Origin: Bdellovibrio sp. ArHS
GTDB taxonomy: Bacteria; Bdellovibrionota; Bdellovibrionia; Bdellovibrionales; Bdellovibrionaceae
Direction: 5' to 3'
Assembly: GCF_000786105.1 (NCBI RefSeq)
Contig: NZ_JTEV01000013.1
Location: forward strand, 1 to 64,000
Length of the DNA stretch: 64,000 bases
Part shown: piece by piece, positions 48,762-56,016 of the stretch
How positions within the stretch are numbered: position 1 is the stretch's first letter
Layout of the letters: every line of letters begins with the position of its first letter
Made by a program: the position numbers and the translations under genes
Notes under the pieces: generated by a model
What the model was told of the DNA's origin: nothing
What the model saw: the letters and a program-made list of their open reading frames with translations, nothing else
Database searches by the model: none

Positions 48762-48768
48762 ACCCCTT

Positions 48769-49148
48769 CGGTTTTGCGGATGATCGCTCTAATAATGCTC
48801 TAAATTCCTGAAATTAGAGAGGAAAGTCCGGACTCCATATGGCAGCGCAAGGGGTAACGCCCCTCGACAGTAATGTCAGGAACAGTGGAACAGAAAGAAT
48901 ATCCAGGACTATGATCCTAAAGGCGGGAACGGGAGCCTTCTGGGGAGTCGCTGGAGTGAAAACAGCCAAACTCTGCGCGGAGCAAGATCAAATAGGGAAG
49001 CATTAGTAGGACGGCCAGTCCGTAGCTTTCGGGTAAGATCGCTTGAGGGTGCTAGTAATAGCATTCCCAGAGGAATGATCATCTACGATTATCGGGACAA
49101 ATTATGGGACCTGGTGATTGGGACAGAATCCGGCTTACAGCAAAACCG
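48769..49148 (+). ncRNA. rnpB: RNase P RNA
   Basis: 380 bases. The conserved core is unmistakable: GAGGAAAGTCCGGACTCC at 48819-48836, AAATAGGG at 48990-48997 and ACAGAATCCGGCTTACAG at 49123-49140. The ends pair as helix P1 (CGGTTTTGC at 48769-48777 with GCAAAACCG at 49140-49148), which fixes the limits. It looks like the ancestral (A) type. The catalytic RNA trims the 5' leader of tRNA precursors. Short open frames inside it are chance. Confidence 0.97.
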
Positions 49149-49253
49149 TGATCCCGCCTTCTTACGACTCACGTCCAGAAATGTGTGTCTTAGCAACTTC
49201 CGATCGAGACTTATCCGAGAAAGATTTAAATTTGACGTATGGAGGAAATTTTC

Positions 49254-50849
49254 ATGCGTCGTCTTGTTGTGGGCTTTATCGCCCTAACGTTGTTTTTGAC
49301 TTCTTGTTCGACCTTTCAATCTTCTGATCGTACGCCTGCATCCACCCAGTACTTTGTCGATCCTCAATATTATGACTTTCAAGTTCTTGTCGCCGAGTCC
49401 TTGGACTTCCGTGCCGAAGCTTTGAAATTCGCTGAAAGCAAAAAGCTAAATGAAACTTCTCAGATTTCTTTGACCCGTACCGAGGGGGAGTGGCTGCGCG
49501 AAAAAGGCCGCAAATATCTGGAGCTGCGTAAAAAGCTGGTAGATTTGGCGATCAAAGAGGGTGAACTCTTTGACGGATATAACTCGGTAAAATTGAACGC
49601 CTACAAGGGGACTTCTACTAAGACCCACAACATGCCGGGCGATTATGAGCGTAGGCCTCATACTCAACAGCCCACCTTCACCGTTATGCAATTAGATCCT
49701 ACTGACAAGGAAGGTGAGCAACGATTCTTCCGTATGCAGATGGCGTTATCCGCAGCATTGCTTCTTATGGATAACTATCTCGTGGCGATTCAGCCCTACA
49801 ATGAAAACTCGTCGCTGCGTTACGTTTTAAACTACGACACAAGCGAACGCCGTGCCCTTCAACAGATTGCCGATTCCTATTCCTCGCCATCGCGTCGGTT
49901 GCAAGTTGAAAAAGGTATTAAATTTATTGACGAAGTCATGGCATGGCGTCGGGCCAAGGGTATCGAAACCAGTCCTGAAGAAAGCTTTTTGTATGGCCTT
50001 ACACAATCAAGCATTTGGTACCTAGCTGTAAAGAATGGTCAGAACAACTCAAGCTTCAAAGATGCCATCGTGAATCTGTGGAACCGCATTACTTTGCGCG
50101 GAAAGCGTGGCGTTCGTGTGGTTTCCTATGGGGTTAGCATGGGATTTGGGAATATGGTCGGATTGGTCGAGACCCGCAAAGGCTACCTTCACAATATGCC
50201 CGCATCTGAAAAAGAGGCTTTGATTGCGGAAATGCAGCCTTTAGATATTCTTATGGAAAAAACACCCTTCCGTCTGACGGATAAAATGATTCCCGGGCAC
50301 TATGGGCACGTGGCGATCTGGTTGGGAACGGAATCTCAATTGCGCGATCTGAAAGTCTGGGATCAAATTCCCAAAAATATTCAGGATAAAATCCGCTCAG
50401 GCCATCGTATCGTCGAAGCTTTGCGTCCTGGTGTGCAAATCAATACTTTAGAGCATTTCCTGAATATTGACGACTTCCTTGTGATTCGTGATAAACGCCA
50501 GGTTTCTGATGACTATCGCCGCAAAGCTATTTTACAAGCGGTCGCTCAAATCGGAAAAGAGTATGACTTCAACTTCGACGTTGCCACTCACGAACGTATT
50601 GTATGCTCGGAAATCGCTTACGTCGTCTACTCGGATGTGAAGTGGCCGTTGGAAGAGATGGTTCGTCGTTATACGATCAGCCCTGATAATGTCGCCCAAC
50701 TTGCCGTGGGGAATAATCCTGTCTTTGAACCCGTGATAATGTACTACGGCGGCAAACGTTATTTTAAAAACCTTCCATACTCTTTGTCGCTTCTTTTGAA
50801 AGCCACGGACCAGTCGTACGCGGATTTCGAAAGATTCCAGAATTTATAA
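49254..50849 (+). CDS. Lipoprotein with YiiX-type permuted papain-like domain
   Basis: 531 residues, lipobox LFLTSC (Cys 18). The first 330 residues are mostly helical and match nothing I know. The last 190 follow the YiiX/YebB group of NlpC/P60 enzymes with permuted catalytic order: His 352 in GHYGHVAIWLG, then Cys 451 in RIVCSEIAYVVYSD. Such proteins hydrolyse peptide, amide or ester bonds, some in the cell wall, some on lipids. It opens a cassette with a second lipoprotein (9 bases on) and a phospholipase D-like enzyme. GGAGGAAATTTTC precedes ATG 49254. Confidence 0.8.
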   Translation: MRRLVVGFIALTLFLTSCSTFQSSDRTPASTQYFVDPQYYDFQVLVAESLDFRAEALKFAESKKLNETSQISLTRTEGEWLREKGRKYLELRKKLVDLAIKEGELFDGYNSVKLNAYKGTSTKTHNMPGDYERRPHTQQPTFTVMQLDPTDKEGEQRFFRMQMALSAALLLMDNYLVAIQPYNENSSLRYVLNYDTSERRALQQIADSYSSPSRRLQVEKGIKFIDEVMAWRRAKGIETSPEESFLYGLTQSSIWYLAVKNGQNNSSFKDAIVNLWNRITLRGKRGVRVVSYGVSMGFGNMVGLVETRKGYLHNMPASEKEALIAEMQPLDILMEKTPFRLTDKMIPGHYGHVAIWLGTESQLRDLKVWDQIPKNIQDKIRSGHRIVEALRPGVQINTLEHFLNIDDFLVIRDKRQVSDDYRRKAILQAVAQIGKEYDFNFDVATHERIVCSEIAYVVYSDVKWPLEEMVRRYTISPDNVAQLAVGNNPVFEPVIMYYGGKRYFKNLPYSLSLLLKATDQSYADFERFQNL

Positions 50850-50858
50850 GGATGAATT

Positions 50859-52058
50859 ATGAATAAAAATATTCGTTGGGCTTTTTTGGCGGTAACGGCC
50901 TTTCTTAGCCTTCATTGTTCACATAAAGAAAAGCGCGAACCGGCGGCGACAAAGTCCTTAACAACGGATGCGGGGGTTGAGGCCGCAGCCGAAATTTTTG
51001 GCGGAGATTCGCCGACACAGGCATATCGTCATCCCTTGAAAATTAATTTTTACACGAATGGTGACCAAAAGTATTTGTCGACCACCGCGCGCAAAGCTTT
51101 GGAACAGGCTCTTACGGAAAGTCTTTCCGCCGAAGTTCCCGAGCAGGCTTTGGCGAAACTTTTCGTAGGCAATCTTAAAGAATCCGTCCTTGAGAACTTT
51201 GTAAAAACGCTAAGAGTTTTCAAAATCATTAATACGGGTTTGCAGGTGGATTTGACTTTTACGCCCGAACCTTATCGCAAGGACGACTATTCAGCTGAAC
51301 TTTCCAGTAATCAGTTGTTCCGCCTGAGCGATGTCGGCACTCTTAGTCGGAAATGGGAAAACTTAGAAAAGGCCACCATGACAGGTTCTATCTATAACAA
51401 CTCTGTCTATGTTCCTATACAAAATAAAGCCGACTATATCGGTGGAGTCATGACCCTGTATGTAGAGATCATGGATTTAAAACCCGGCATTCCGAAGCCC
51501 TCAAAAAAGGGTGTAAAGGGGTATGTCCGCTATCGTCGGTATTATCGGGTCAACGATTCCTTAAACAAGCCTATGCAATGTGAAAACTTTATTGCGTCGG
51601 CAAAAGGCGGCGGAAACGGCGTTCCCGTCTTCTACACTGTCGACATTTACAAAAACTTCAATCTTAAGAATCTGATTCCCACAGATGAGTATCTTGAAGT
51701 TTATCCAGGCCTTCTTGCAACTTCCAGTGAGGGGCGTTCCGAGTTGATGCCGGATAAATTTGATTCCGTAGGGAAATCTGTTCAGACGGCAACCTACACC
51801 GTAGAGCCCAAAAGACGTTTTTCAGAAAGCGTCAGCTTTAAACTTAAAAAACTCGTTTACGATATGAAAACAAAAGAAATCAACATCAATAAGAGCTCCG
51901 TCGATTTAGTTGAATACATTCCGGATGGTGGTGAATCCTCGTCTCAGAATCAGGACATGGTCCTAAATGATGCCAAACGCCAACTTTTCAAAAAGTGCGA
52001 AAAGCAATTGGAGTCATTCTTAAATCTTCAATCCGTTCTTGAAGGACGTGCCCTATGA
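50859..52058 (+). CDS. Lipoprotein of unknown function
   Basis: 399 residues, lipobox LSLHC (Cys 21). Mature chain is soluble, with beta-rich stretches (YIGGVMTLYVEIMDLKPG, VKGYVRYRRYYRVND) and one more Cys pair-like set (QCENF, KKCEKQ). I do not recognise any family. It lies 9 bases after the YiiX-type gene and overlaps the PLD gene by 4 (ATGA), so the three are translated as a unit. It may scaffold or localise its enzyme neighbours at a membrane; this is inference. Confidence 0.78.
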   Translation: MNKNIRWAFLAVTAFLSLHCSHKEKREPAATKSLTTDAGVEAAAEIFGGDSPTQAYRHPLKINFYTNGDQKYLSTTARKALEQALTESLSAEVPEQALAKLFVGNLKESVLENFVKTLRVFKIINTGLQVDLTFTPEPYRKDDYSAELSSNQLFRLSDVGTLSRKWENLEKATMTGSIYNNSVYVPIQNKADYIGGVMTLYVEIMDLKPGIPKPSKKGVKGYVRYRRYYRVNDSLNKPMQCENFIASAKGGGNGVPVFYTVDIYKNFNLKNLIPTDEYLEVYPGLLATSSEGRSELMPDKFDSVGKSVQTATYTVEPKRRFSESVSFKLKKLVYDMKTKEININKSSVDLVEYIPDGGESSSQNQDMVLNDAKRQLFKKCEKQLESFLNLQSVLEGRAL

Positions 52059-54106
52059 AAAAAATGGCTTTGATTGCTTTGACGATAATTGTGGCTTTCC
52101 AGGCAAAGGCGCAGACCGTGTCTTTAAAAGAGCGGCTGGCGGCGGTAGAGTTCTACAAGAAGAATCATGATGTTCTTTATGGTCCTGAAGCTTGCCGTCG
52201 GGCCGAAACGCTGTTGAAAGAGTTGCAAAAGCTTCCCAAGGCAGAGCAGGGAAAGACACGGGATTTCGTAAAAACCTACGAAAACCAGATTCCCGAGTCG
52301 ATCCTGCGCCCTTTGGTTTATTGGAAATTTATAAAGAAAAATTCCGCCAATGAAAGTCGCGTGCTTCAGTCATTACTACAGTATCGTTTGCAGCTATTGC
52401 GGGACTACGCAGAGCACCCCTTAAAAAAAGACAAAGCCGCGCAAGCCAAGGCGCGATCGATGATGGATGCGATGGCGCAGCAAGGTGCGCGCGATTTGTC
52501 TTTGCGAAATCCGGAGTTAACGCAGGATTTGCGCAGTTTGTTTCCGGAAATGGATGATCACGTTTTGACGGCCACAGGGCTGATTCCCGGCAATGCTGTC
52601 GAACTGGTCAGTCATAACGAGACTTCGCCTGAAAGAATCCAGTGGTTTAATGATCGGGTCATCTTTGCCGGCGGCAAACTTGATTTCAGTCAGCCCTACA
52701 TGAAAATGCCTTTAACCAATACAGACGAGGGACATCCTTCTTTTAAGGACCCCATGTTTGCAAAGATCCGCGACATGATTCTTTCGGCGAAAGAGTCTGT
52801 TTTTATCAACATCTTCCTTTTCGGAGGAACGATGGGCGGGACTTTGTCGAAATTTCTTCTGGATCAGGCTGTTGAAAAAAAGAAGACCAATCCGAACTTC
52901 AAAGTTTTGATCATGCATGACTATGCGACGAACTATAATATGGAAGATGAAATGATGCCGATCTTTAAATACATTAAGGATCGCTCACAGGAGCCGGCGC
53001 TTAAGGGCTCTGTGATTCTTCTTCAAGCGAACATTCAAAGACATCCGCCCGGTATTCCCTTTGGTTTGACAAACTTTGTTCCGAAAACGGAAGAGACCTT
53101 CAAGGCCTTGGAAAAAAGAAATACTTACTATGAATCTAAGATTGATCACAGCAAAGTGATTGTTGTCGACGCGGAATCAGATGCTCCACAGGCCTATTTC
53201 GGTTCAAAGAATTGGACAGATCATAGCGGTGGATACTATTTCGATAATGCCTTGTATGTTAAAGGACCGGCAGCGGCCATGGTGCAAGCGGCCTACTATG
53301 ATGACGTCGACGCGGCGTTGACGTTAGATCCCAAAGAGCGCAAATGGTTCTTCTACAAGGAACAGGGCTTGGCGAATGAAGCCTATTTGCCGCAACGAGA
53401 TCAGATTTTGGCATGGTTCAAGTTAAAAAGGACAGAGTATCCCGCCCAGGGCACTCAGGTGGTCCGTTTGGCTGAAGCCAATGTTGATGGCAGAATCAAG
53501 GACGCGCGAAATATTTTGGTTGATATGATCTCTAAAGCAGAAAGCCATATTTATATGGAACAGCTTTTCATTTACGACAAATATATTAATGACGCTTTGA
53601 TGAAAAGAAAGGCCCAGGTGCCTTCGCTGAAAGTTCGTATTTTGGCCGACCACAACGGAAACTTCAAAATGGGCGGATTGCCCAATACTCTATTCCTAGG
53701 ACAGTTGCTGGATCACGGTGTCGAGGTGCGCGCGCGACGTACGCTGGGAATTGAAGCACACTTTCCAGACGGAACAAAGCAGGAGTATCATCAAGAAAAC
53801 CACAGAAAGATTACTTCTGTAGACGGAAAAGTTCTTTTGGCGGGATCATCCAATCTAAACCCTGACACTTTACAGGGAAGCTTTCGCGAGTTCGGAGCCC
53901 AGATCTTTGACAAAGCGGAGATCCGCAAGTTCGAATCCGAATTTGAACAGGACTGGAACGACGATGCTAAGATCGGCCCCTTCTTTGAGGGTGATGCTTT
54001 ACAATTGACATTGAAGGGCCAAAAACTTTCGCCGGAACTAAGTCGCCTCATCAACGATGTTGGTGCGAAGGTGATCCGCGCAAAAGACGATATCGAGAAG
54101 CGTTAA
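52055..54106 (+). CDS. Exported phospholipase D-like enzyme
   Basis: 683 residues with a signal peptide (ends AFQAKA). Two HxK-x4-D motifs: KIDHSKVIVVD (His 365, Lys 367, Asp 372) followed by GSKNW, and NHRKITSVD (His 583, Lys 585, Asp 590) followed by GSSNLNPDTL. This is the full active site of the PLD superfamily, whose members cut or swap phosphodiester bonds in phospholipids, cardiolipin or DNA. A helical N-terminal 190 residues is extra. Export plus coupling to two lipoproteins points to membrane lipid as substrate, of self or prey. Confidence 0.9.
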   Translation: MKKMALIALTIIVAFQAKAQTVSLKERLAAVEFYKKNHDVLYGPEACRRAETLLKELQKLPKAEQGKTRDFVKTYENQIPESILRPLVYWKFIKKNSANESRVLQSLLQYRLQLLRDYAEHPLKKDKAAQAKARSMMDAMAQQGARDLSLRNPELTQDLRSLFPEMDDHVLTATGLIPGNAVELVSHNETSPERIQWFNDRVIFAGGKLDFSQPYMKMPLTNTDEGHPSFKDPMFAKIRDMILSAKESVFINIFLFGGTMGGTLSKFLLDQAVEKKKTNPNFKVLIMHDYATNYNMEDEMMPIFKYIKDRSQEPALKGSVILLQANIQRHPPGIPFGLTNFVPKTEETFKALEKRNTYYESKIDHSKVIVVDAESDAPQAYFGSKNWTDHSGGYYFDNALYVKGPAAAMVQAAYYDDVDAALTLDPKERKWFFYKEQGLANEAYLPQRDQILAWFKLKRTEYPAQGTQVVRLAEANVDGRIKDARNILVDMISKAESHIYMEQLFIYDKYINDALMKRKAQVPSLKVRILADHNGNFKMGGLPNTLFLGQLLDHGVEVRARRTLGIEAHFPDGTKQEYHQENHRKITSVDGKVLLAGSSNLNPDTLQGSFREFGAQIFDKAEIRKFESEFEQDWNDDAKIGPFFEGDALQLTLKGQKLSPELSRLINDVGAKVIRAKDDIEKR

Positions 54107-54130: not shown

Positions 54131-54165
54131 ACGCCGAGGCTTGGTCTTCGGCGTTTTCTTTTTCT
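54131..54165 (+). terminator. Terminator of the exported cassette
   Basis: ACGCCGA / TCGGCGT stem with a 10-base loop, then TTTCTTTTTC. Confidence 0.82.
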
Positions 54166-54189: not shown

Positions 54190-56016
54190 ATGGAAAAAAT
54201 GGCTTGGAATATCGAATCGGAGTATCCTTCTTGCACCTCTTCAGAGTTTCAAACTGAGTTCGAAAATTTTTCGAATAAAGTCAGACTTTTAGAAGAGCTG
54301 GTTAAAACCGCACAGGCATCTTTGGCAGACTCTTTGTCTGGCAAGACGATGCCGTCAGAGTCTACACGGGAACAGCTTCAGAAAATTCTGTTAGAGCGTG
54401 AGGCTGCCTTGATCCTTTCCATGAACATGGGGACCTTTCTGAATTGCACTTTATCAGTGAATTCGGCTGACGATGCCGCTCAGGCGAAGTTTTCCGAACT
54501 TCAGGCACTGAATTCTCGATTCTGGCAATCGACGATTCCGGTGAATAATTTCTTAAAACGTTGTTCAGAAGATTTTCTTATGAAAGTGCTTGAGCATCCG
54601 GAATTGCAACCTGCCGAATTTTTCTGGAAGAATGAACGAAAAAATGCTGACACCTTGTTGTCTGATTCGGAAGAAGCTTTGTTAGAGTCTGTCTCTAATC
54701 CCGGCTTAAGAGCCTGGGGAGAACTTTACACAAAGCTCAGCGGGGCCATGCGCTGCCAACTTCAGTGGGAGAATAAAACCGAAACTGTGGGGTTGGCGCA
54801 AGCCAGTGCTTTGACTCGCAGTCTGGATGAAAATACGCGAAAAGTGGCTTGGTCTAGTATTCAAAATGCTTGGGCAGAACATAAAAACACCGCCGCCTTT
54901 ATTCTTAATTCTTTAGCAGGCTGGCGCCATGAGGTGAATAAAAAGCGTTCTTACGCAAAACCCGTGCATTTTCTGGATACGTCTTTGCATGGCAATCGTA
55001 TTGAAAGAGCGACACTGGATGCGTTGATATCCGCCTGTCATAGCAACCTGAATGACACCCGCAAAGCCCCGCGCTTGATGGCTCAACTTATGGGAAAAAG
55101 AGCTTTAGATCCGTGGGACCTTTTGGCGCAAAGCCCGGTTTCCGGAGGGAAGAAGGAACGTTCTTTTGACGAAGCTCTGTCGCTCATTCAGGATTCTTTC
55201 GCCCGTATCGACCCCCAGATGTCTGATTTTGTAAAAATGATGGCGGACAAGCGATGGATAGAGGGTCGAGTTCTTCCGCATAAACGCAACGGCGCCTATT
55301 GCACAGGATTTGCGAAGCGCCGCGAGCCCCGGGTTTTCATGACTTATATGGGTTCTAACAGCGATATTTCCACCTTGGCTCATGAATTGGGACACGCGTT
55401 TCATTCCTGGGTGATGCGCGATCTACCTCGTTCGCAAACGGGTTATCCTATGACGTTGGCAGAAACGGCGAGCATCTTTGCAGAAACAGTTCTTCATGAT
55501 GTTTTGATTGAAGAAGCACAAACTAAAGAAGAAAAGATCGAATTTGCCTGGGGAGAGGTTGAAGGGGCCACCAGTTTCCTTATTAACATCCCAGCACGTT
55601 TCGAATTTGAAAAAAGCTTCTATGAGCAGCGCCAAAAGCGCTCGTTGAACGCGGATGAACTTGCGCAGTTAACGGATGAAGCGTGGAATAAGTGGTATGG
55701 GCCGACGCTGACAGAAAACGATAAAATGTTCTGGGCAACCAAGCTGCATTTCGCGATGGCAGGCACCAGCTTTTACAACTATCCTTACACCTTTGGTTAT
55801 TTGTTTGCCATGAGTATCTATGCTCGCCGACAGGAACTGGGCAAAGATTTTATGAAAAAATATGTCGAGATTCTAAGGGATACGGGCAGAATGACGGCGG
55901 AAGATTTGGTTCTGAAACACTTGGGCGAAGATATTCGTCAACCGGAGTTCTGGCAAAAATCCATAGATGTTATCAAGAACAAGGTGAATGCGTTTGAAAA
56001 GCTAGCGTTTCGCTAG
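54190..56016 (+). CDS. M3 family oligoendopeptidase
   Basis: 608 residues. The thermolysin-type zinc motif is LAHELGHAFHSWVM (His 398, Glu 399, His 402), and the third ligand Glu lies in MTLAETASIFAETVL. An N-terminal oligoendopeptidase F-like domain (60-130) and the late YNYPYTFGYLFAMSIYARRQ complete the M3 pattern. No signal peptide, so it trims peptides in the cytoplasm, fitting a cell that imports digested prey protein. ATG 54190 or 54199 may be used; neither has a good ribosome site. Confidence 0.93.
   Translation: MEKMAWNIESEYPSCTSSEFQTEFENFSNKVRLLEELVKTAQASLADSLSGKTMPSESTREQLQKILLEREAALILSMNMGTFLNCTLSVNSADDAAQAKFSELQALNSRFWQSTIPVNNFLKRCSEDFLMKVLEHPELQPAEFFWKNERKNADTLLSDSEEALLESVSNPGLRAWGELYTKLSGAMRCQLQWENKTETVGLAQASALTRSLDENTRKVAWSSIQNAWAEHKNTAAFILNSLAGWRHEVNKKRSYAKPVHFLDTSLHGNRIERATLDALISACHSNLNDTRKAPRLMAQLMGKRALDPWDLLAQSPVSGGKKERSFDEALSLIQDSFARIDPQMSDFVKMMADKRWIEGRVLPHKRNGAYCTGFAKRREPRVFMTYMGSNSDISTLAHELGHAFHSWVMRDLPRSQTGYPMTLAETASIFAETVLHDVLIEEAQTKEEKIEFAWGEVEGATSFLINIPARFEFEKSFYEQRQKRSLNADELAQLTDEAWNKWYGPTLTENDKMFWATKLHFAMAGTSFYNYPYTFGYLFAMSIYARRQELGKDFMKKYVEILRDTGRMTAEDLVLKHLGEDIRQPEFWQKSIDVIKNKVNAFEKLAFR

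Follow-up and report, generated by a model that had tools for sequence, protein, structure and literature searches.

A lipoprotein of no known family coupled to an exported phospholipase D-like enzyme in Bdellovibrio and its phylum, with a possible role in the attack on prey membranes

What might a predatory bacterium do with three consecutive genes for exported proteins, one of which belongs to no known family, and do these genes belong together at all? We addressed this question for genes A, B and C in a window of 64,000 nucleotides (the whole stretch of DNA analyzed here) from Bdellovibrio sp. ArHS, whose genome comprises 3.54 Mb, and for their relatives in other genomes of the phylum.

Layout and products of the three genes

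Genes A (49254..50849), B (50859..52058) and C (52055..54106) all lie on the forward strand. The gap between A and B amounts to 9 bases, a GGATG precedes the start of B, and B and C share 4 bases (ATGA). On the same strand an intrinsic terminator with a 9-pair stem and a T-rich tail (54131..54154) ends the unit; the spacer that contains it folds with -24.7 kcal/mol (z -2.7), and downstream of it the gene of an M3-family peptidase starts at 54190. The first-pass annotation of this DNA had described three exported genes with 9-base and -4-base spacing that are closed by a terminator, and we found open reading frames and terminator just as described. Absent from it was the class A RNase P RNA (48768..49153, forward strand; Rfam RF00010, 223.4 bits), which lies outside the module, ends about 100 bases 5' of A and serves here as a marker of the site. 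A sigma-70 scan did not find a promoter for the A-B-C unit. Comparison with two orthologues gave pN values of 0.09-0.30 versus a pS of about 0.8 for A, B and C, and all three are real coding genes under purifying selection; since dS is saturated, no dN/dS ratio is given.

The product of gene A is a lipoprotein with a C-terminal C92 (permuted NlpC/P60) domain at residues 331-482 (Pfam PF05708, E 1.2e-22, 81.1 bits with the family cut-off at 27). The cysteine of its lipobox (...LFLTSC18-S) is kept in all aligned Bdellovibrio A orthologues. Residues H352, E388, Y437 and C451, in the permuted order His-Glu-Tyr-Cys, are invariant in 13 diverse proteins, so that the complete permuted papain-like His/Cys pair noticed earlier (His352 and Cys451) is borne out; the catalytic positions of YiiX and BcPPNE are the same quartet of His, Glu, Tyr and Cys. 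For the YiiX equivalog NF007458, A scores 22.6 bits against a cut-off of 216, and judged by sequence A is a relative of YiiX, with YiiX itself excluded. The approximately 330 residues before position 331 match no family in Pfam or NCBIfam, as had been supposed; a structure model predicts them to be helical with moderate confidence. This model has a mean pLDDT of 45.3 (2-sequence alignment), with values <50 over the C92 domain, where we looked for a hydrophobic acyl-binding pocket. Those permuted NlpC/P60 enzymes that have been characterized to date have the acyl groups of lipids or lipoproteins as their targets: a fatty acid is bound in YiiX (PMC3142127), PG and PE are cleaved by Tox-Act1 (PMC12994826) and lipoprotein N-acylation requires LnsA (PMC7387801).

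Gene B likewise encodes a lipoprotein (lipobox ...LSLHC20-S), the cysteine of which is kept in all aligned Bdellovibrio B orthologues, so that the lipoboxes assigned to A and B at first reading both hold. Searches of Pfam, NCBIfam and PDB returned no match for B, in agreement with the earlier statement that the entire protein fits no family. Its structure model reached a mean pLDDT of 46.5 (3-sequence alignment; the model alignments for A and B comprised the proteins of the window and of loci L011 and L012 only) and gave no Foldseek match with E <0.001; given this low confidence and the missing match, we claim no fold for B.

The product of gene C carries a Sec-type signal ending in A-x-A and belongs to the phospholipase D (PLD) superfamily (PLDc_2, PF13091, 3.3e-20; PLD motif, PF00614, 5.9e-5). 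Both of its HKD motifs, H365-K367-D372 and H583-K585-D590, are intact and invariant in 10 proteins, as expected from the two motifs recognized earlier (residues 365-372 and 583-590). The cassette proposal had been made to depend on conservation of the catalytic Cys/His and HKD residues, and in aligned relatives these are indeed invariant (n=13 for A, n=10 for C). C reaches the cut-off of no named PLD subfamily, e.g. with 27.3 bits against 290 for cardiolipin synthase (TIGR04265, E 1.7e-6) and 19.2 bits against 297 for the NucT-type nuclease (NF010492, E 6.9e-4), and its profile weakly matches Streptomyces phospholipase D structures (6.6e-5). A contig scan of the genome with C alone yielded two loci.

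Linkage and fusions across the phylum

Of the 369 phylum genomes searched, 49 contain B, and 42 of these also contain a strong C match (Fisher p 9e-47; as this value ignores relatedness, it attests to linkage inside lineages and not to an equal number of independent events); C without B occurs in one phylum genome only, as a remnant in Bdellovibrio genome G099. The matches to B and C are directly adjacent in 41 genomes and lie 1.1-1.3 kb apart in 3 more, in which only a distant part of C was matched; the ATGA-type overlap recurs in relatives. Outside Bdellovibrio, the order A-B-C is present in families f4 (G039, G086), f26 (G336, G337, G349, G350) and f12 (G127, G129, G233), and most f12 genomes contain the B-C pair without A and a B that starts with a membrane anchor instead of a lipobox. 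By these matches, B-C is a conserved tight pair across the phylum, which A accompanies in four families. Whether the three genes always occur together, a check suggested with the first-pass annotation, can thus be answered in part: mostly they do, but A lies elsewhere in one Bdellovibrio genome (G025) and is often alone in others.

Fusions were observed as well. A and B form a single protein in L011 and G350. A second kind of fusion, of an A-type protein with a PLD of a different type, occurs in one genus of the same family (five genomes); the catalytic quartet of A is retained in all three of the A-PLD fusions that we examined. At L067 and L193 a PLD gene ends 7-10 bases upstream of A, and at L204 and L214 a third type of PLD gene is located directly upstream and overlaps A by 4 bases. 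Altogether, a PLD is fused or adjacent at 11 of 53 A-type loci read outside Bdellovibrio, which were of our own choosing and therefore do not represent a random sample; A was found in over 100 genomes, and at many A-type loci of the phylum there is no neighbouring PLD gene.

Several neighbourhoods were recorded in addition. Distant PLD-like proteins that are exported and roughly 800 residues long (L072:6261-10051, L073:4869-8890, L074:6880-10754, L075:6493-10582) are encoded directly behind a gene for 454-555 residues that has no clear Pfam family, in a layout resembling B-C. Many f12 B-C loci (L113, L119, L121, L123-L127, L130, L131, L133, L134) are close to a gene whose product starts with MAVKKVIRMGHPxLR, a start that resembles peptide deformylase, and other A-type paralogues in f12 (L219, L221, L225-L229) lie beside a gene starting with MISIKSxREIELMR, which resembles methionine aminopeptidase. 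At L068 (870-8213) an A-type lipoprotein stands behind two other lipoproteins, a RoxA-like cytochrome and a protein of 995 residues that weakly matches P450; the candidate HKD protein encoded two genes before A at this locus was rejected, as it is this cytochrome and no PLD. At L070 (5020-7680) a CotH-kinase-like exported protein is directly followed by an A-type protein.

Occurrence in Bdellovibrio and the link to Bd3603

Within the genus, A, B and C are all present in 8 of 24 genomes, and 14 show no trace of the module. The module is thus accessory and outside the core predation functions, and, with most of the genus lacking it, dispensable for predation in general. The other two genomes contain parts of it: in G103 only the first part of A was found, next to RNase P where the contig ends, and in G099 only the second half of C is left (332 residues), adjoining an inserted RCC1-repeat gene. 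In G025 the B-C pair occupies its usual place, and A is located on a different contig. In three of the 14 genomes without the module (G044, G050, G056) the M3 peptidase gene stands directly by RNase P. The stretch after the RNase P RNA (window 48768-49253; L079, L093, L094, L103) is variable across the genus, with genes for an alpha/beta hydrolase, DUF1254/DUF1214 proteins or RCC1-repeat proteins in different genomes; in G099 (L103:5160-8455) the RCC1-repeat gene, 709 aa, takes the place of A and B and of the first half of C. Such variability has the look of an insertion hotspot.

A connection to predation comes from a 2024 study of emptied bdelloplasts, in which the PLD-like proteins Bd1257, Bd1516 and Bd3603 were among the predator proteins in emptied prey, in data that comprise few peptides and, according to the authors, include some predator breakage (PMC11003981). 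In genome G032, which we take as HD100, PLD-domain matches are located at 1.19, 1.44 and 3.50 Mb, the places expected for Bd1257, Bd1516 and Bd3603 (1054, 1054 and 1030 locus tags per Mb), and the C orthologue is the sole PLD match near 3.5 Mb. We are therefore highly, though not fully, confident that Bd3603 is the C orthologue in HD100, an assignment made by position and not by a sequence record. Bd3604 and Bd3605 are not named in this context in the main texts, the only other matches to these tags being from a mite paper, and Bd3603 is not named in the main text of the predatosome paper.

Candidate function and comparison with known systems

We prefer to read the cassette as a module that is anchored in the membrane, attacks phospholipids and probably serves against prey, B being the dedicated membrane partner of C; this reading has about an even chance of being right. 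A would be an outer-membrane-type lipoprotein enzyme that forms an acyl-thioester on its Cys and then either sets the fatty acid free or passes the acyl group on to an amine or a different lipid, and C would be an exported HKD phospholipase D that cuts or exchanges the phospholipid head group. B, a membrane-anchored protein whose synthesis is probably coupled translationally to that of C, has much closer ties to C than to A and is most likely the partner of C, which it would dock, fold or restrain at the membrane of the predator itself. As an accessory, the module would in Bdellovibrio most likely act on prey membranes early in predation. An anchored acyl enzyme and an exported head-group enzyme that are co-made, and whose kinds are repeatedly fused, fit such a module. 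Of the earlier idea that an amidase/esterase-like enzyme is coupled to a PLD in lipid or lipoprotein remodelling, the coupling stands, with conserved pairing and fusions, and lipid as substrate (rather than lipoprotein) and prey as target (rather than self) are what we infer.

B might also be an immunity-like protein or inhibitor of C, so that B-C would be an effector-immunity pair and A a second effector. This is possible, though we doubt it, and it is a variant of the preferred reading rather than a contradiction to it. B is membrane-anchored, is tied to C by the overlap, is practically confined to the company of C and has the higher rate of divergence (57% identity to G032, versus 76% for C); however, gene B precedes gene C, one lineage has B fused to A, and modelling of B gave no usable fold.

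As to the target, the main rival is that the predator uses the module to edit phospholipids or lipoproteins of its own while it grows in prey, and that nothing is delivered to prey at all, which we consider somewhat less probable still. That A and B are anchored lipoproteins, that many f12 B proteins have an N-terminal membrane anchor in place of the lipobox, and that LnsA and Lnb, also permuted NlpC/P60 enzymes, modify the cell's own lipoproteins would all agree with it. The first reading had left prey and own envelope side by side; the prey side gains from the listing of Bd3603 in the emptied-prey secretome (PMC11003981), for which reason we favour prey as the target, and a housekeeping role poorly matches absence from most of the genus.

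It is improbable that C is instead an exported HKD nuclease digesting prey DNA or RNA: the HKD superfamily does include nucleases, and C has a weak match to NucT (6.9e-4, far below cut-off), but the match to cardiolipin synthase, though weak as well, is better (1.7e-6), the C profile matches phospholipase D structures (6.6e-5), and a nuclease would leave the repeated pairing of differing PLD types with a C92 lipid-type enzyme unexplained. That A, B and C are functionally unrelated and adjacent by chance is hardly credible, as the adjacency recurs together with two kinds of gene fusion even though A is often alone elsewhere and at another locus in G025, and for B-C this notion is already largely refuted.

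A far more specific version of the preferred reading is a two-step pathway, in which A would N-acylate phosphatidylethanolamine with acyl groups from prey phospholipid and C would release N-acylethanolamine and phosphatidate, with B as a new partner family. By analogy this is conceivable, and we think it very unlikely; if true, it would be a bacterial counterpart of the PLAAT/NAPE-PLD route, and B would found a new family of phospholipase membrane partners.

Membrane attack in Bdellovibrio predation has few named enzymes, and Bd3603, known from killed prey, now gains two partners. The families of A and C are already known; a literature search returned no description of B or of the A-B-C module. 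B, a family of unknown function, is now tied to an exported PLD across the whole phylum, and a permuted NlpC/P60 lipid-type enzyme is repeatedly coupled and fused to PLDs.

Like Peptidase C92 of the YaeF-YiiX type (YiiX PDB 2if6), A has the C92 domain and the His/Glu/Tyr/Cys quartet, but unlike YaeF-YiiX it has about 330 additional helical residues at its front, a lipoprotein anchor and a place in a PLD-containing module. C shares the two HKD motifs of PLD superfamily PF13091, with weak profile matches to cardiolipin synthase and Streptomyces phospholipase D, and differs from the named PLDs in being below every subfamily cut-off, in its export, in an N-terminal region of its own and in its own partner B. 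LnsA and Lnb, the lipoprotein N-acyltransferases, share the permuted NlpC/P60 superfamily and the cell-envelope location with A, whereas LnsA works with LnsB, a CPBP-family protein, and has no PLD partner. In the mammalian PLAAT/NAPE-PLD route a permuted NlpC/P60 acyltransferase precedes a phospholipase D, a parallel that is a lead and not a test; NAPE-PLD has a metallo-beta-lactamase fold, unlike C. Tox-Act1, a permuted NlpC/P60 phospholipase of the same superfamily as A, is a T6SS effector that targets the envelope phospholipids of another bacterium, whereas A is without a T6SS marker, anchored as a lipoprotein and paired with a PLD.
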